DNA of 45,125 bases from Candidatus Zhuqueibacterota bacterium. Lineage in GTDB: Bacteria > Electryoneota > RPQS01. Shown piece after piece: positions 7,588 to 40,950 of the stretch (its first letter is position 1; every line of letters starts with the position of its first letter). The stretch lies in contig RPQS01000028.1 of NCBI GenBank assembly GCA_003818605.1, positions 1-45,125 of the forward strand, given 5' to 3'. The notes under the pieces were generated by a model that saw only the letters and a program-made list of their open reading frames with translations, ran no database searches and was not told the origin of the DNA. A program made the translations under genes and the position numbers.

Positions 7588-8061
7588 CTATTCACCCATC
7601 AACTCATTCAACTGAAACGAATGCTTCATGGGATGGACAACGGCGTGCTCGAGCATGGAGTCTATCGAGTAATCCATATCCCAGCGGGATTTGTAGCTGG
7701 GGTGCGAGCATCGGGTTTCATCAATTCGAGTCAGCGGTATGCGCCATTTCTCTAAAAGACAATTCATGTACGAATCCGCGGCGGATTCCACGCGCTCCGG
7801 CGGCGGAGCTTCTTCGATCTGCGGATCGGGCAATGCTAATTTCTCACACATCCATGTCATATAGCCGCGCGCGGCCCGGAAAACGTGATGCAGCAAGTGT
7901 TCCAGCGATTCATAATCGGGATCGTCGGTTTCGGGCAGTGCAACTTTCCGGGCCTTGGCTTTCCGCCAAACCTCCAGAAAACGGCGCATCTCGCGCTCGT
8001 GGATAAGCACAGAAGCCCGCGCGCCGCGATACGAATAGTTCGAAAGTTCGGTTAACGGCAT
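7588..8061 (-). CDS. DinB-like four-helix protein of unknown function
   Basis: The ATG at 8061 follows the mnmE stop by one base, which argues for translational coupling. The frame extends further upstream but only inside mnmE. The 157 residues include histidine-rich helices LEHLLHHVFRAARGYMTWM and MLEHAVVHPMKHSFQL. They resemble the metal-binding His triad of the DinB/YfiT superfamily of thiol transferases. The match is by pattern only, and no specific reaction can be assigned. It is one of three DinB-like genes in the window. Confidence 0.7.
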   Translation of the reverse strand: MPLTELSNYSYRGARASVLIHEREMRRFLEVWRKAKARKVALPETDDPDYESLEHLLHHVFRAARGYMTWMCEKLALPDPQIEEAPPPERVESAADSYMNCLLEKWRIPLTRIDETRCSHPSYKSRWDMDYSIDSMLEHAVVHPMKHSFQLNELMGE

Positions 8062-8062
8062 G

Positions 8063-9922
8063 TCATTTTCCGATGCAGAATTGGGAAAAGATTCTGTCCA
8101 ATATATCTTCGCCGACGGTTTCACCGGTGATTTCACCCAACGCATTGACCGCATCGCGCAAATCAGAAGCCATGAGCGTGGGCTGGGCAAGCTGCTTTTG
8201 CGCGCGGATCATGCTTTCCAAAGCGCGGGTCAGGGCATCGTGATGTCGGGCTTCGGCAATAATAATGTCATCGCTTGCGGTTTCTTCATCCACAACAAAT
8301 GAGGCCAATTGATGCAGCAGGTTTTCGATTCCCTGTCCGGTCAGGGCGGAAACGTCGGCGACGGCAAGGGGCGCGATTTCGTCCACAAAGGGCACAATAT
8401 ATTGTGCCCCTACAAGATCGTTTTTATTCCAGACCAGAATCACGCGGCGGGAAGGCAGAAGGTTTAGCGTCTCCGCATCAGGCCAATGCGGATCATTTAA
8501 ATCCACGATAACAAGCACGACATCGGCGCGCTCGACGGCGCGTTTCGTGCGGGCAATACCCTCGCTCTCGATTTTTCCTTCCGCCGCGCGCGCTCCGGCG
8601 GTATCCTGCAGAATAATTTCCAGCCCTTCCACCTCGATGTGCGCTTCCACCACGTCGCGAGTCGTGCCGGGTTCGGGACTGACAATGGCGCGGTCTTCAC
8701 CGACCAGCGCATTCAGCAGCGTGGATTTTCCCGCGTTGGGCGCGCCGACCAGAGCCACACGCACACCCTCGCGAACGAGCCGCCCGCGCTGAAAAGTTTC
8801 CGCCAGCGCCCGCAAGTCTTTTTCCAATATTCGCAGCGAAGTCTGCCGCCGTTCGCGCGTTTCAAACACCACGTCTTCTTCGGCGAAGTCGAGTTCCAAT
8901 TCGAGCAAGGCCAGCGCATCGAGAAGAATGCTGCGCATGCCGCGGACTTTCTCGCTGAGTCCGCCCTGCAATTGACGAGCGGCGGCGCGACCGGCGCGGC
9001 GCGAGCGGGCGTGAATCAGATTGGCAACCGCCTCGGCCTGCGCGAGATCGAGTTTTCCGTTCAGAAACGCGCGTTCGGTAAATTCGCCGGGGCGAGCCAT
9101 GCGCGCGCCGTTTTCGAGCAATAGTTCCAAAATCTGCGCAGCCGCATAGCGCCCACCGTGGCAAGAAATCTCCACAACATCCTCGCCCGTATACGAGCGC
9201 GGCGATTGAAAGAATGTGATGACGACTTCGTCTATCAGGACGCCGTTGCTTTCGATGCGTGCATGGTGGGCGGAGTTAGGACGAAGTTTCCCCCCGTGGA
9301 CGGGGGGATGAAAGGGGGGTATCTCTTCCTTTATTCTCAAACATACCGCGTCAAGATTCTCATATATTTCTCTGTTTGCGAATCGAATTACATGGAGACC
9401 CTGCGTCCCGAAAAACAAGCTTCGGTTCCGGTCATGTTCCTTTTGTAATTCGCTCGTATGAGTATCACCATCTACCTCAATAACCAGATTCGCTTCACGA
9501 GAATAGAAATCGGCAATATACGGCCCGATAGGATGCTGACGGCGAAACTTTACACCCAATTGACGATCGCGCAGCGCTTTCCATAGAACCCGTTCCGCCG
9601 CTGTGAGATTTCGTCTCATTTCGCGGGCATGTTCAAATGTTGCGTCGGGGACCAGCGTCCAATCGTTGTATTCGCCCTGATCTCCCACCCCCCTTTCATC
9701 CCCCCGTCCACGGGGGGAAATTTTGTGATTGTCGCAAGGGAAGCGCCCCGATGTACTTTCTTCGCCTGACTCTCCCACCCCCCGTTCATCCCCCCGTCCA
9801 CGGGGGGAAATCATTGAATGCGCAATTACAAGCGCGCGCGGCCCGGATAGACGGAGCACGGCAATCCCGCCGATGCCGGGCGGGGTCGCGAGTGCACAAA
9901 TCGTATCGGTCGTCATGGACAT
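8063..9922 (-). CDS. mnmE: tRNA modification GTPase MnmE with an in-frame DUF559 nuclease insertion
   Basis: MnmE is the folate-binding, K+-activated GTPase partner of MnmG. The chosen start is ATG 9922 (MSMTTDTICALATPPG). A TTG 48 bp upstream is also open but would translate a palindrome. From this start the protein is 619 residues, against about 450 for the family. The excess is about 174 residues (39-212) inserted in the N-terminal folate domain between ALVIAHSM and LRPNSAHHARIE. The rest is canonical: RSYTGEDVVEISCHGG, P-loop VGAPNAGKSTLLNAL, G3 DTAG, G4 NKND and the C-terminal FCIGK. A second 8-codon insert (VGAQYIVP) right after NKND comes from a REP copy. The original function is probably retained because the frame is open throughout. 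Confidence 0.93.
   Translation of the reverse strand: MSMTTDTICALATPPGIGGIAVLRLSGPRALVIAHSMISPRGRGDERGVGESGEESTSGRFPCDNHKISPRGRGDERGVGDQGEYNDWTLVPDATFEHAREMRRNLTAAERVLWKALRDRQLGVKFRRQHPIGPYIADFYSREANLVIEVDGDTHTSELQKEHDRNRSLFFGTQGLHVIRFANREIYENLDAVCLRIKEEIPPFHPPVHGGKLRPNSAHHARIESNGVLIDEVVITFFQSPRSYTGEDVVEISCHGGRYAAAQILELLLENGARMARPGEFTERAFLNGKLDLAQAEAVANLIHARSRRAGRAAARQLQGGLSEKVRGMRSILLDALALLELELDFAEEDVVFETRERRQTSLRILEKDLRALAETFQRGRLVREGVRVALVGAPNAGKSTLLNALVGEDRAIVSPEPGTTRDVVEAHIEVEGLEIILQDTAGARAAEGKIESEGIARTKRAVERADVVLVIVDLNDPHWPDAETLNLLPSRRVILVWNKNDLVGAQYIVPFVDEIAPLAVADVSALTGQGIENLLHQLASFVVDEETASDDIIIAEARHHDALTRALESMIRAQKQLAQPTLMASDLRDAVNALGEITGETVGEDILDRIFSQFCIGK
8390..8413 (-). repeat. REP copy in frame inside the mnmE G domain
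   Basis: Read on the minus strand it is GTAG plus the 20-bp perfect palindrome GGGCACAATATATTGTGCCC. It encodes about eight extra residues just after the NKND guanine-specificity motif. A close relative (C/G swap in the stem) is at 40882-40905. Confidence 0.85.
9287..9320 (+). repeat. 34-bp GC-run repeat, outer copy (3' end of insert)
   Basis: It reads TTTCCCCCCGTGGACGGGGG then GATGAAAGGGGGGT: a CCCCCC/GGGGGG hairpin followed by a spaced G run. It is inverted relative to the other two copies in this unit. Confidence 0.9.
9687..9720 (-). repeat. 34-bp GC-run repeat, inner direct copy
   Basis: This is the same 34-bp sequence as at 9287-9320 on the opposite strand. It and the next copy also share GGGAGA and then TCAGG-like bases beyond the 34 bp, so the direct repeat is about 50 bp. 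Confidence 0.9.
9777..9810 (-). repeat. 34-bp GC-run repeat, outer copy (5' end of insert)
   Basis: It is the same 34-bp element with one change (ATGAAC for ATGAAA). It encodes SPRGRGDERGV in the mnmE frame and marks the upstream boundary of the inserted unit. Confidence 0.9.
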
Positions 9923-9977
9923 ATCATATCCGTGCGGGGTCGCAGTCCCGCGCGGCGCGCCGATATTCAACCAAACA

Positions 9978-11582
9978 TCAGCGCAGCAAAATCATTTTAT
10001 GATGGAGCGAAGCCTGCGGCGTTTCCAGCCGCACCACATAAATGCCGGAAGCCAAACCATCCGCATCGAAACGGACACGCTGCGTTCCCGCACCGACCAT
10101 GCCTAATTCGCGCATGAAAACTTCGCGTCCGGTCAGATCAAAGGCGCGCAGCACGACAGACGTCGAACGCGAAAGGTTGAAGGAAATCACCGTGGACGCA
10201 TTGAACGGATTAGGATAGTTCGTCAAACTGTATTCGGTTGCGAGCGGAACGACAGATTCCTCCGCCGCATCGGGAATGTTGGCGAAAAACACGCCTTCGC
10301 CGTTCGAGGCACCGACAAGATAGATCCCGTCGGTCGCTTGCACCGTCCAATGGAATGCGGCGACTTCGTCGAGTTCCACAATGATCGGAATAAGCGCGGT
10401 GTAGCTTGTATCCGGGGTGATGAAGTGCTCGTCGAACACATAATCCGTCGAATAGACATGGAGGTCATACGTGATTCCGGCGCCGTCCGGATCGCTCGAC
10501 GCCGACCACATAAAATGAACGTAGGGGATCGGTTCCCACGGATCGAGTGCGCTGTCGGCGGGCAGCGTTCGCACAAACGGCGTAGGCATTTGATTGGCTT
10601 CTTCGCCGCCGGAAAAAGTTCTCAGAACCGCGCCGTTTTGCCCGACGGCGTAGCCGGTGTCGGCGCCGGCCATGTCTATCGCGATGAGATCGCCCGTTCC
10701 CAAATGCTGGCTGCGCCACGTATCGCCGCCGTCATCAGTGCGATAGATATTCTGATTCTCGCCGACAATCCATCCGATATCGGTGGAGATAAAATCCACA
10801 TCCCACCACGTCAGGCGCAGCGCATTGGGCAGAACTTCCCATGTCTGTCCGCCGTCCGTCGTGCGCGCGCGCAATCCCGCCGCACCGACCGCCACGCCGA
10901 AACTTTCGGTGGTGAAATCCACTCCGTAAATCGGATTGGTGGTCCAGAACACCGTGGACCACGTTTGCCCCAAGTTCGTGGAACGCACAATCGCACCTTC
11001 CTGCTGCCAGGAACATCCGGCTCCGACCAAGACACTGTCACTCAGCATAACGATGTCCACAATCGGGCCGGTGGTTGCGGGCTGGCCCGGCGGTTCCAAA
11101 TTGAACGTACGCTCGGTGACGCTTACCCAGCCGTCCGTGGTAATCTTCACCGTCGGCGTGAATCCCCAGTTCATTCCGGAGACGGCTCCGCGCAACGGCG
11201 TGCGCATGTGCGCTCCCCGGCAATCCATCATGGGACTGGAGTGTACCGTGTCCCAATCGGCTCCGTTGTTCTGCGTGAACAAGACGGCGCCGTCGGTGCC
11301 GGTAATTACTCCGACGGAAGGATTCGCAAAAGAGACTCCCCACAAAGACGCCGTAACGCCTAAGGAATGGGACGTCCATGTCTGACCGCAGTTCGTGGTA
11401 CGCAGAATGTTTCCTGTCGCGCCGACTACGGTGCCGGTGCTTCCGTCCGTGAAGTCCACCCCCCTGAAGGGCAAGGGGTCCACCGTGGCGAGCGGCTGCC
11501 ATCCCGTTTGGGCGATGGCAACGGAGCAACACATCGTCAACAGAACAAGCAAAACGAGAATTCGGTTCGCCGCCATGAGCAT
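9978..11582 (-). CDS. Secreted YCF48/BNR-type beta-propeller protein with T9SS C-terminal sorting domain
   Basis: This is a 534-residue exported protein. Residues about 1-25 (ILVLLVLLTMCCSVAIAQ) form a signal peptide. Repeated units of the form RTTDGGQTWEVLP and RTDDGGDTWRSQHL, alternating with GVDFT...GVAVGAAG, are the Asp-box/YCF48 propeller repeats. A fibronectin-III-like stretch (VHFMWSASSDPDGAGITYDL) follows at about 350-430. The last 80 residues have NYPNPFNASTVISF, LRAFDLTGREV and SGIYVVRLE, the type A sorting domain removed by the type IX system. It probably sits on or is released from the cell surface. Ligand and role are unknown. The gene ends just upstream of mnmE. Confidence 0.85.
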   Translation of the reverse strand: MLMAANRILVLLVLLTMCCSVAIAQTGWQPLATVDPLPFRGVDFTDGSTGTVVGATGNILRTTNCGQTWTSHSLGVTASLWGVSFANPSVGVITGTDGAVLFTQNNGADWDTVHSSPMMDCRGAHMRTPLRGAVSGMNWGFTPTVKITTDGWVSVTERTFNLEPPGQPATTGPIVDIVMLSDSVLVGAGCSWQQEGAIVRSTNLGQTWSTVFWTTNPIYGVDFTTESFGVAVGAAGLRARTTDGGQTWEVLPNALRLTWWDVDFISTDIGWIVGENQNIYRTDDGGDTWRSQHLGTGDLIAIDMAGADTGYAVGQNGAVLRTFSGGEEANQMPTPFVRTLPADSALDPWEPIPYVHFMWSASSDPDGAGITYDLHVYSTDYVFDEHFITPDTSYTALIPIIVELDEVAAFHWTVQATDGIYLVGASNGEGVFFANIPDAAEESVVPLATEYSLTNYPNPFNASTVISFNLSRSTSVVLRAFDLTGREVFMRELGMVGAGTQRVRFDADGLASGIYVVRLETPQASLHHKMILLR

Positions 11583-21403: not shown

Positions 21404-21881
21404 GGGGCATGCCATAGCATGAAGGATTGCGCCAGCGAATCCGTTTGGCGGAAAGAGAAAAACGAGATTAATGGGCGCAACGCCTTACACCCCTATGAGA
21501 AATGACTCCCTTTCGTCCCCCCGTCCGCAGAGCAAGATCTCGCCTACGGCGGACACGCAGGGGGAAATAAGAGCGCACTGCCGTGCGGGCGCTACGGAAA
21601 AAGAAAACGGGCGGGTGACACACCCGCCACGGCGGTTTCGGCAGGGTTTGGAAACCCTGCTCGGCGGACGCGAGGGGTGAGGGCACCCTCTCGCGGCGCA
21701 CCTTGCAGTGATCGCGTTGCGGAAGAGAATACGCCCCCATTGTATCCCCCCGCGAACGGAGGGAGAGAAGAAAAGATTCCGGGCACGCGAGACGCGAGCC
21801 TCGGCGACATACGGCAGGGTCAGCGACCCCGGCTCGGCGGAAAGACCTCGACAGCGAGCGCAAAGCTCGCTGTTATTGTTT
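21404..21881. repeat. Dense cluster of palindromic repeats between DUF3800 and DUF721 genes
   Basis: No gene is credible in 21190-22130. In order it holds a hairpin ending in TTTGGCGGA (21424-21452) and a GC-run repeat split by an inserted hairpin (about 21510-21566, insert 21524-21553). A GTAG-type REP follows on the minus strand (21571-21595). Two TCGGCGGA-type hairpins have cores GGCGGGTG/CACCCGCC (21610-21628) and GCAGGGTTT/AAACCCTGC (21641-21668). Then come CGCGAG...CTCGCG (21669-21695), another GC-run repeat (21732-21769) and two more TTCCG/CGGCGGA hairpins (21776-21808 and 21813-21841). Last is ACAGCGAGC/GCTCGCTGT followed by TATTGTTTT (21851-21881), which could terminate transcription. 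Confidence 0.8.
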
Positions 21882-40770: not shown

Positions 40771-40950
40771 CCGCGCACGGCAGTGCGGTCCTATAAATAA
40801 TCGCGAGGGGTGAGGGCACCCGCTCGCGGCGAGGCAAGTTGTTTCGTAGCCGCGCACGGCAGTGCGAGCCGTATTGAGATTGTAGGGGCACGATATATCG
40901 TGCCCGTCGGGAAATCGCCCCCCTTTTATCCCCCCGTGAACGGAGGGAGA
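40767..40950. repeat. Cluster of REP and GC-run repeats before the YfiT-like gene
   Basis: GTAG-headed REPs are at 40767-40790 and 40846-40869 (both CCGCGCACGGCAGTGCG type) and at 40882-40905 (palindrome GGGCACGATATATCGTGCCC). A CGCGAG...CTCGCG hairpin lies between them at about 40802-40830. A 34-bp-type GC-run repeat follows at 40917-40950. No gene is present. Confidence 0.82.

Follow-up and report, generated by a model that had tools for sequence, protein, structure and literature searches.

The window, by which we mean the whole stretch of 45,125 nucleotides analysed here, carries on its minus strand a 635-codon mnmE gene for the tRNA modification GTPase (8063–9970, assigned from its frame and by Pfam), in which an insert of exactly 525 bp, or 175 codons (9287–9811, minus strand), lies in frame between the residues ...VIAHSM and LRPNSAHHARI..., as judged by a frame check and by comparison with relatives. 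The initial annotation had described about 174 extra codons, right in that they are in frame and slightly short in size. The insert encodes a DUF559 nuclease domain (PF04480; 9320–9634, minus strand; residues 113–217 of the MnmE frame, Pfam E 2.5e-31) with 13 invariant columns over 50 sequences including that of the window, and the domain is complete, as had been claimed. The other MnmE domains are present, in line with that annotation: TrmE_N is matched in two stretches and MnmE_helical across its full profile, and the GTPase domain is present (Pfam).

Three copies of a 34-bp REP accompany the domain, and the earlier description of inverted copies at both ends plus a third, direct copy agrees with the two direct and one inverted copies found. 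In the sense of mnmE, copy 1 lies 5' (9777–9810, minus strand), with its hairpin followed by a G-rich tail towards the nuclease; copy 2 (9687–9720, minus strand) is direct to copy 1 at a spacing of 90 bp; and copy 3 (9287–9320, plus strand) is inverted, lies 3' of the nuclease and abuts the end of the domain match. The order is thus REP (9810–9777), spacer, REP (9720–9687), DUF559 (9634–9320) and inverted REP (9320–9287). The 90-bp in-frame stretch with the extra REP copy is missing from G001, another genome of the same genus as the window's own genome (G000), where that side holds one REP, and from this comparison we read the stretch as a putative duplication. The arms at 9287–9320 and 9777–9810 (34 nt) are 97% complementary, each of the three REPs folds into a hairpin with an 8-bp stem and a 4-nt loop (z of −1.9 to −2.3 versus shuffles), and a G- or C-run adjoins each hairpin. 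While the insert is open in only one of six frames, the 34-bp repeat by itself is open in five of six. Two further palindromes of the same family lie at 21745–21764 (plus strand, three mismatches) and 40929–40948 (plus strand, two mismatches), bringing the palindrome matches in the window with at most three mismatches to five, versus 0.01 expected by shuffling.

Two kinds of splicing element were considered as candidates and rejected for MnmE: an intein, since no Hint or intein domain was found in the full MnmE frame (Pfam, E 0.01; the L092 intein, included in the same run as a control, gave Hint_2 and Intein_splicing), and a group I or II intron, since Rfam gave no match up to E 1 at positions 8000–10000 and the insert is an open frame. 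The initial annotation had likewise seen no splicing apparatus.

The DUF559 domain comprises ∼105 residues, and its AlphaFold model has a pLDDT of 89. A fold search with this model retrieved only 3hrl and 3r3p (I-Bth0305I) at E<0.001, the latter at 2.1e-4, and a sequence profile found the same two structures, with 3r3p at 5.8e-5. The domain is therefore predicted, by modelled fold and by profile, to be a nuclease of the EDxHD/Vsr type, akin to homing endonucleases, the group to which a DUF559 gene is assigned in PMC9403480. I-Bth0305I (PDB 3R3P) is EDxHD/Vsr-like and has the same catalytic fold, but it is named a mobile intron protein, whereas the window domain is translated within its host protein without intron or intein; moreover, I-Bth0305I is described as having long extra DNA-binding parts (PMC3943268), whereas here there is a bare catalytic domain, so that the specificity of the DUF559 nuclease is in doubt. 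A DUF559 protein of Caulobacter, VsrA, is described as necessary for the DNA damage response observed when no cytosine methyltransferase is present (PMC12907096), which fits nuclease activity in cells. A defence system was among the readings rejected, as searches against PADLOC and PHROGs mostly recovered the host protein: PADLOC matches cover the GTPase part, with a weak DpdF match at residues 153–200 (E 8.8e-5), and the best PHROGs match is to the MnmE part, with weak matches over the nuclease, for example to an HNH endonuclease family (E 5.9e-5, residues 142–216). Enterotoxin B chains among the PDB sequence matches (E 0.26 and above) were taken as chance. The initial annotation had also suggested that an internal ATG could yield free nuclease; this idea is weak because, judging from the sequence and the modelled helix, such a start would truncate the opening helix of the domain at its beginning.

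The 34-bp repeat is not confined to the insert but belongs to a dispersed REP-like family, which amends the initial annotation. With at most three mismatches, its pattern has 51 forward and 48 reverse matches in G000 and none in either direction with a reversed control, and the loci examined from this genome hold 56 distinct REP sites. Fourteen of the 56 lie inside open frames that extend for 60 codons or more to either side; three of these are the mnmE copies of the window, and three others were checked by Pfam, namely leuS (L003, G000:C72:41962-44981), where a REP stands in frame between two REP-like stretches that are divergent by eye, rarA/mgsA (L008, G000:C94) and a GatB-type gene (L047, G000:C128). 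At up to two mismatches, the palindrome occurs at 95 sites in G001 and at 0 to 26 in the remaining members of the family. By a crude test confined to G000, GTAG/CTAC occurs within 10 nt of the stem at 1/56 sites and CGTC/GACG at 3/56, giving no support for a GTAG- or CGTC-type REP superfamily. In G002, the REP beside one of the DUF559 genes has 67 genome matches versus 0 for the control. Flank repeats are established as genome-wide families only for G000 and G002, and the G000 palindrome also occurs in G001 and other relatives. G000 has a second, free-standing DUF559 gene (L002/L053, G000:C151), situated at the end of a contig and followed downstream by a REP-like stretch that, by eye, differs from the others.

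The mnmE loop was compared by eye in the 10 readable genomes of the order (of 13; G004, G005 and G012 were left out). Two carry DUF559 with REPs, four a single REP at the same site, one a REP pair nearby and three neither. G001 has the same REP-DUF559-REP arrangement at the same position as G000, and the common insert is most simply explained by descent, with no recent move visible in the window. The single REP-like elements are found in G009 and G003 (one genus), G010 and G002, that is, in three genera, none of them that of G000; the C-run comes first in G009 and G003 and the hairpin first in G010 and G002. In G008, mnmE has a REP pair some codons further on, and in G006, G007 and G011 neither REP nor DUF559 was seen at the loop. 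The only match to the palindrome in the whole G010 genome (two mismatches) is the REP inside mnmE. Comparison of MnmE, which the initial annotation had expected to expose empty sites, did so: three genomes lack the insert and four have the REP alone. The REP-only alleles fit arrival of the REP first and of DUF559 later as well as they fit loss of DUF559, and they may be scars rather than precursors. In the mnmE of G002 (L065, G002:C17), tandem REP-coded peptides also occur in the G domain, besides the REP in the N-terminal loop, and the frame stays open (619 aa).

We then aligned the 250 bp upstream of DUF559 domains with the 250 bp downstream, in both orientations, using genes of the same loci as controls. 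The first set consisted of the best 80 of at least 560 DUF559 loci from many phyla, of which 77 were usable (three with short or masked flanks were dropped). At a score of at least 20, 38/77 DUF559 domains had matching flanks versus 3/438 small genes of the same loci, and at a score of at least 16 the figures were 43/77 versus 8/438. Along the matching stretch, the 43 pairs of flanks show C- or G-runs and a stem of between 4 and 16 bp; at only 6 of the 43 loci, local alignment revealed further copies of the flank repeat in neighbourhoods of up to 20 kb. The second set covered three groups (the phylum of the window, one family of Bacteroidota and one alphaproteobacterial order), was chosen in part for long frames and excluded domains below 60 bits, duplicates and short flanks (the G004 intein locus is in both sets); here, 73/101 DUF559s reached a score of 16 versus 5/129 control genes, and 56/101 versus 1/129 reached 20. 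At a score of 16, these matches comprise 26/29 from the window's phylum, 23/42 from the Bacteroidota family (16/33 for Bacteroidota frames of at least 300 aa) and 24/30 from the alphaproteobacterial order. The inverted orientation was best in 31 of the 43 matches of the first set and 40 of the 73 of the second, the flanks being sometimes direct, and at this score 34/77 and 28/101 DUF559s had no flank match. A DUF559 match is present in 59 of the 117 genomes of the Bacteroidota family and in 44 of the 114 of the alphaproteobacterial order; within the former, frames of 300 aa or more hold 45 of the 96 matches that reach 69 bits. The association of DUF559 with repeats elsewhere, which the initial annotation had proposed to look for, is thus observed for the same kind of repeat, and so are empty sites, whose absence together with that of such an association it had named as fatal to its reading.

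Repeats at both ends of a gene might also reflect transport by another enzyme: REP pairs could be moved in trans by a transposase, of the Y1 (RAYT) type or another, with DUF559 as the cargo of a composite. Y1_Tnp matches exist in 39 of 41 genomes, with six in G000 itself, and could supply such activity; REPs in frame without DUF559, as in the G008 mnmE pair and in G000 leuS, accord with it, and for Legionella, recombination hotspots are described that consist of repeated segments carrying a transposase together with a DUF559 gene (PMC12308824). However, DUF559 recurs as the cargo across phyla, where random cargo would vary, and the GTAG/CTAC head described for RAYT-linked REPs (PMC3733652) is near only one of the G000 REPs. 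We therefore regard transport by a transposase as unlikely, if still the strongest of the competing explanations.

The nuclease is under purifying selection. Between G000 and G001, 64/104 of its residues are identical, with dN 0.27 and dS 4.0 by NG86 and dN 0.25 and dS 1.8 by LWL85, a dN/dS ratio of about 0.07 to 0.14; in the part of MnmE after the insert, 302/391 residues are identical, with dN 0.17–0.19 and dS 1.2–1.3 (0.17 and 1.2 by NG86). The 20-bp palindromes at both ends are identical in the alignment of the two genomes. Because they are unchanged though synonymous sites are near saturation, this suggests either constraint at the DNA level or homogenisation with other REPs.

A scattered distribution was seen for the inserts in LeuS, a protein that is present in 114 of 117 genomes searched and has a verified in-frame DUF559 in 16 of the 114. 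Twelve genomes have it at site B (before TTRPDTIFGV), five at site A (before TNTMPG) and one of these at both, and G059 appears from search matches to be a further case. In 34 of the other 98 LeuS, comprising the best matches and some longer frames, no DUF559 was seen; in most LeuS without DUF559 the same anchors are 22 and 16 residues apart, and a few have short REP-like inserts only. The REPs in the leuS of the window's own genome lie at site B, the site of REP-DUF559 in Bacteroidota. A LeuS tree was built from 50 rows (32 empty and 18 with insert, two from outside the family list) with the insert columns removed and with L254 (the same leuS as L135), L279, L217, L253 and L255 left out; since rows with inserts are over-represented and parts of the tree are weakly supported, its counts describe scatter, not frequency. 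On it, the 13 rows with site B require 13 changes and the presence of any insert 16, about as many as with shuffled labels, and site A requires 5 changes for 6 rows, or 4 for 5, a slight clustering that 67/500 shuffles equalled or undercut. One supported clade (99/91) unites the LeuS-borne DUF559s; of its 21 rows, one is not in LeuS, and sites A and B are mixed within it. The identity of these DUF559s tracks that of the host LeuS only weakly (rho 0.22 over 170 pairs), and it is 0.486 for the same site and 0.500 for different sites. This pattern is no more than consistent with site-specific cleavage and gene conversion of empty alleles. In the leuS of a Parafilimonas MAG (L156), a single 1315-aa frame holds a DUF559 cassette at each of two sites, plus a REP-only insert.

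These data bear on a less probable explanation, in which REPs recombine by chance and an inactive, fossil nuclease has spread by descent with many losses. The insert common to G000 and G001 would be expected from it, as would the decayed DUF559 copies with stops that do exist (e.g. G042:C70), but it accounts poorly for purifying selection at high dS with the invariant residues kept and for scattered LeuS inserts with mixed sites.

MnmE and LeuS are two of 15 conserved protein families with an in-frame, non-intein DUF559 (Pfam). The domain lies within or between host domains in LeuS, PriA, RibE and Type ISP and Eco57I-type enzymes, and further in-frame hosts are HsdR, AroC, CinA, adenine deaminase, MetH (in two places), MetRS, IspG/GcpE, an IcmF-type mutase and the Lhr helicase (Pfam, run on 30 of the 40 candidate frames of the later set; host names finer than the Pfam family are our own reading). 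The RibE call is based on two flanking Lum_binding stretches and on reading of the sequence. Hint families were absent from LeuS, PriA, RibE and the Type ISP and Eco57I-type hosts (Pfam, E 1e-5) and from HsdR, AroC, MetH, MetRS, Lhr and the other later hosts (Pfam, E 1e-8). A DUF1156 methylase (L173) and IleS (L375, cut by a contig end) are probable additional hosts, and an M23 peptidase case (L353) is a candidate.

Such breadth argues against a domain kept for its use to the host, be it a nucleic-acid function for MnmE and LeuS or Vsr-type repair, with the REPs incidental. Purifying selection on DUF559 and the VsrA-dependent DNA damage response of Caulobacter (PMC12907096) speak for such use; the hosts (LeuS, AroC, MetH, IspG, HsdR, Lhr) are, however, functionally unrelated, the sites differ within one gene and presence is patchy, making this explanation quite improbable. 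REPs can cause wrong joins in assemblies, and that of G000 is incomplete (253 contigs), yet a misassembly or binning artefact, an alternative also raised by the initial annotation, is hardly credible and was rejected, given the same insert in the separate genome G001, a frame open throughout, and the same architecture in contigs titled after strains rather than MAGs, namely those of Ilyomonas limi 17mud1-8 and of Foetidibacter luteolus YG09.

Taken together, the comparisons of sequence support mobility and selection, and we think it probable that the insert is one member of a widespread family of REP-bounded DUF559 cassettes, a non-splicing, translatable element of the homing type with the REPs as its ends or landing sites. 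Such a cassette would persist in conserved genes because the repeats and nuclease are translated as a loop of the host protein, with nothing being spliced. Most likely, a REP would first settle in a tolerant loop, as at the mnmE site of the four genomes from three other genera; the nuclease would then cut the REP or the empty allele, and repair would copy REP-nuclease-REP into the break. Repair from a REP-DUF559-REP donor would be possible because the hairpin, being nearly palindromic, supplies matching ends to either side of the break: REPs in opposite orientation still share almost the same 20 bp on either side, so that even a break in a single REP should be repairable. Loss of the nuclease would leave a REP behind. 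Within this scheme, we infer the cleavage of REPs, the target, the copying by repair, the order of the steps and a functional MnmE fusion. As for the mobile unit of nuclease plus cognate repeat put forward by the initial annotation, its in-frame entry without splicing, its empty sites and its association with repeats hold; action of the nuclease on the repeat and movement in one piece go beyond the observations and are best kept as conjecture.

Several known systems share parts of this organisation. Rickettsia palindromic elements and intragenic REPs are in-frame palindromic repeats, including in repair and tRNA-related genes (PMC3733652), and the insert shares with them a palindromic repeat of a dispersed family that is read in frame within a gene; their unit is, however, described without a nuclease ('DUF' is absent from the main text of that source), whereas the insert carries a complete nuclease domain. 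REPtrons, in which a RAYT gene is flanked by REPs (PMC3733652), likewise place the gene for a DNA-cutting enzyme between REP hairpins and are accompanied by dispersed, gene-less REPs, but their enzyme is a Y1/HUH transposase; here, the ORF between the REPs is DUF559, the Y1 genes are elsewhere in the genome, and the unit is translatable inside other genes. Inteins with DUF559, such as that of an N6_N4 methylase (G004:C434), likewise put an in-frame nuclease and REP-coded stretches into a conserved gene, but they have Hint blocks and a C-terminal HN-C (by Pfam for L092 only), of which the MnmE frame has none. The insert is accordingly filed outside the intein, intron, REPtron and repeat-only classes, because it fails the tested defining feature of each.

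The initial annotation knew of no described system of this kind, which is too strong for the parts. In-frame REPs, published without a nuclease (PMC3733652), REPtrons, EDxHD homing nucleases, with DUF559 among them, and DUF559 next to intein reports are already known (PMC3733652, PMC9403480, PMC3943268). As for the whole, titles and abstract openings of the open PMC literature, a scope outside which subscription papers fall, hold no report of a REP-bounded or non-splicing in-frame DUF559. The novelty lies in the combination, and outside literature could change that. Homing nucleases are held to invade conserved genes through linkage to self-splicing sequences (PMC3943268), whereas LeuS, PriA, MetRS, MnmE and other hosts seem to tolerate the present nuclease as a loop. 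A bolder generalisation, to which we lean neither way, is that REP-bounded DUF559s represent a third mode of homing beside introns and inteins, invading housekeeping genes and persisting translated without splicing, and that the same nucleases mobilise a large class of transposase-less, GC-rich REP hairpins. The link to DUF559 suggests, in a form open to testing, how REPs other than the RAYT-linked ones are spread; a similar question is left open for CGTC REPs (PMC3733652), a type to which the G000 repeats do not belong by our crude stem test. For annotation, many 'DUF559 fusions' would be parasites and not domains of the enzymes themselves.

Two classes of locus are apparent among the 80 of the first set, namely methylase inteins with DUF559 and inserts that are free of splicing motifs and bounded by REP-coded peptides. 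The N6_N4 DNA methylase intein (L092/L124; DPTC...HNCGSGTT) has its REP-coded stretches inside the intein, and similar DUF559 inteins occur in several phyla among L127-L192 by motif reading; intein labels in the DUF559 tree are likewise readings of Hint motifs, L092 alone having been labelled by Pfam. N-terminal fusions to HisF/HisA, ArgB-like kinases, a GHMP kinase, RimM, SufS, SufD and UreE may be separate genes with an internal start. DUF559 lies upstream of HisF in L158 (Pfam) and in L167, L172, L177, L188, L200, L202 and L205 (by reading), from Pedobacter and another of the Bacteroidota; this arrangement is conserved and may reflect either domestication or two genes sharing one frame. Finally, a 1380-aa HsdR frame (L339, G098:C9) contains, between the HsdR domains, DUF559 and a separate GIY-YIG (residues 265–331).
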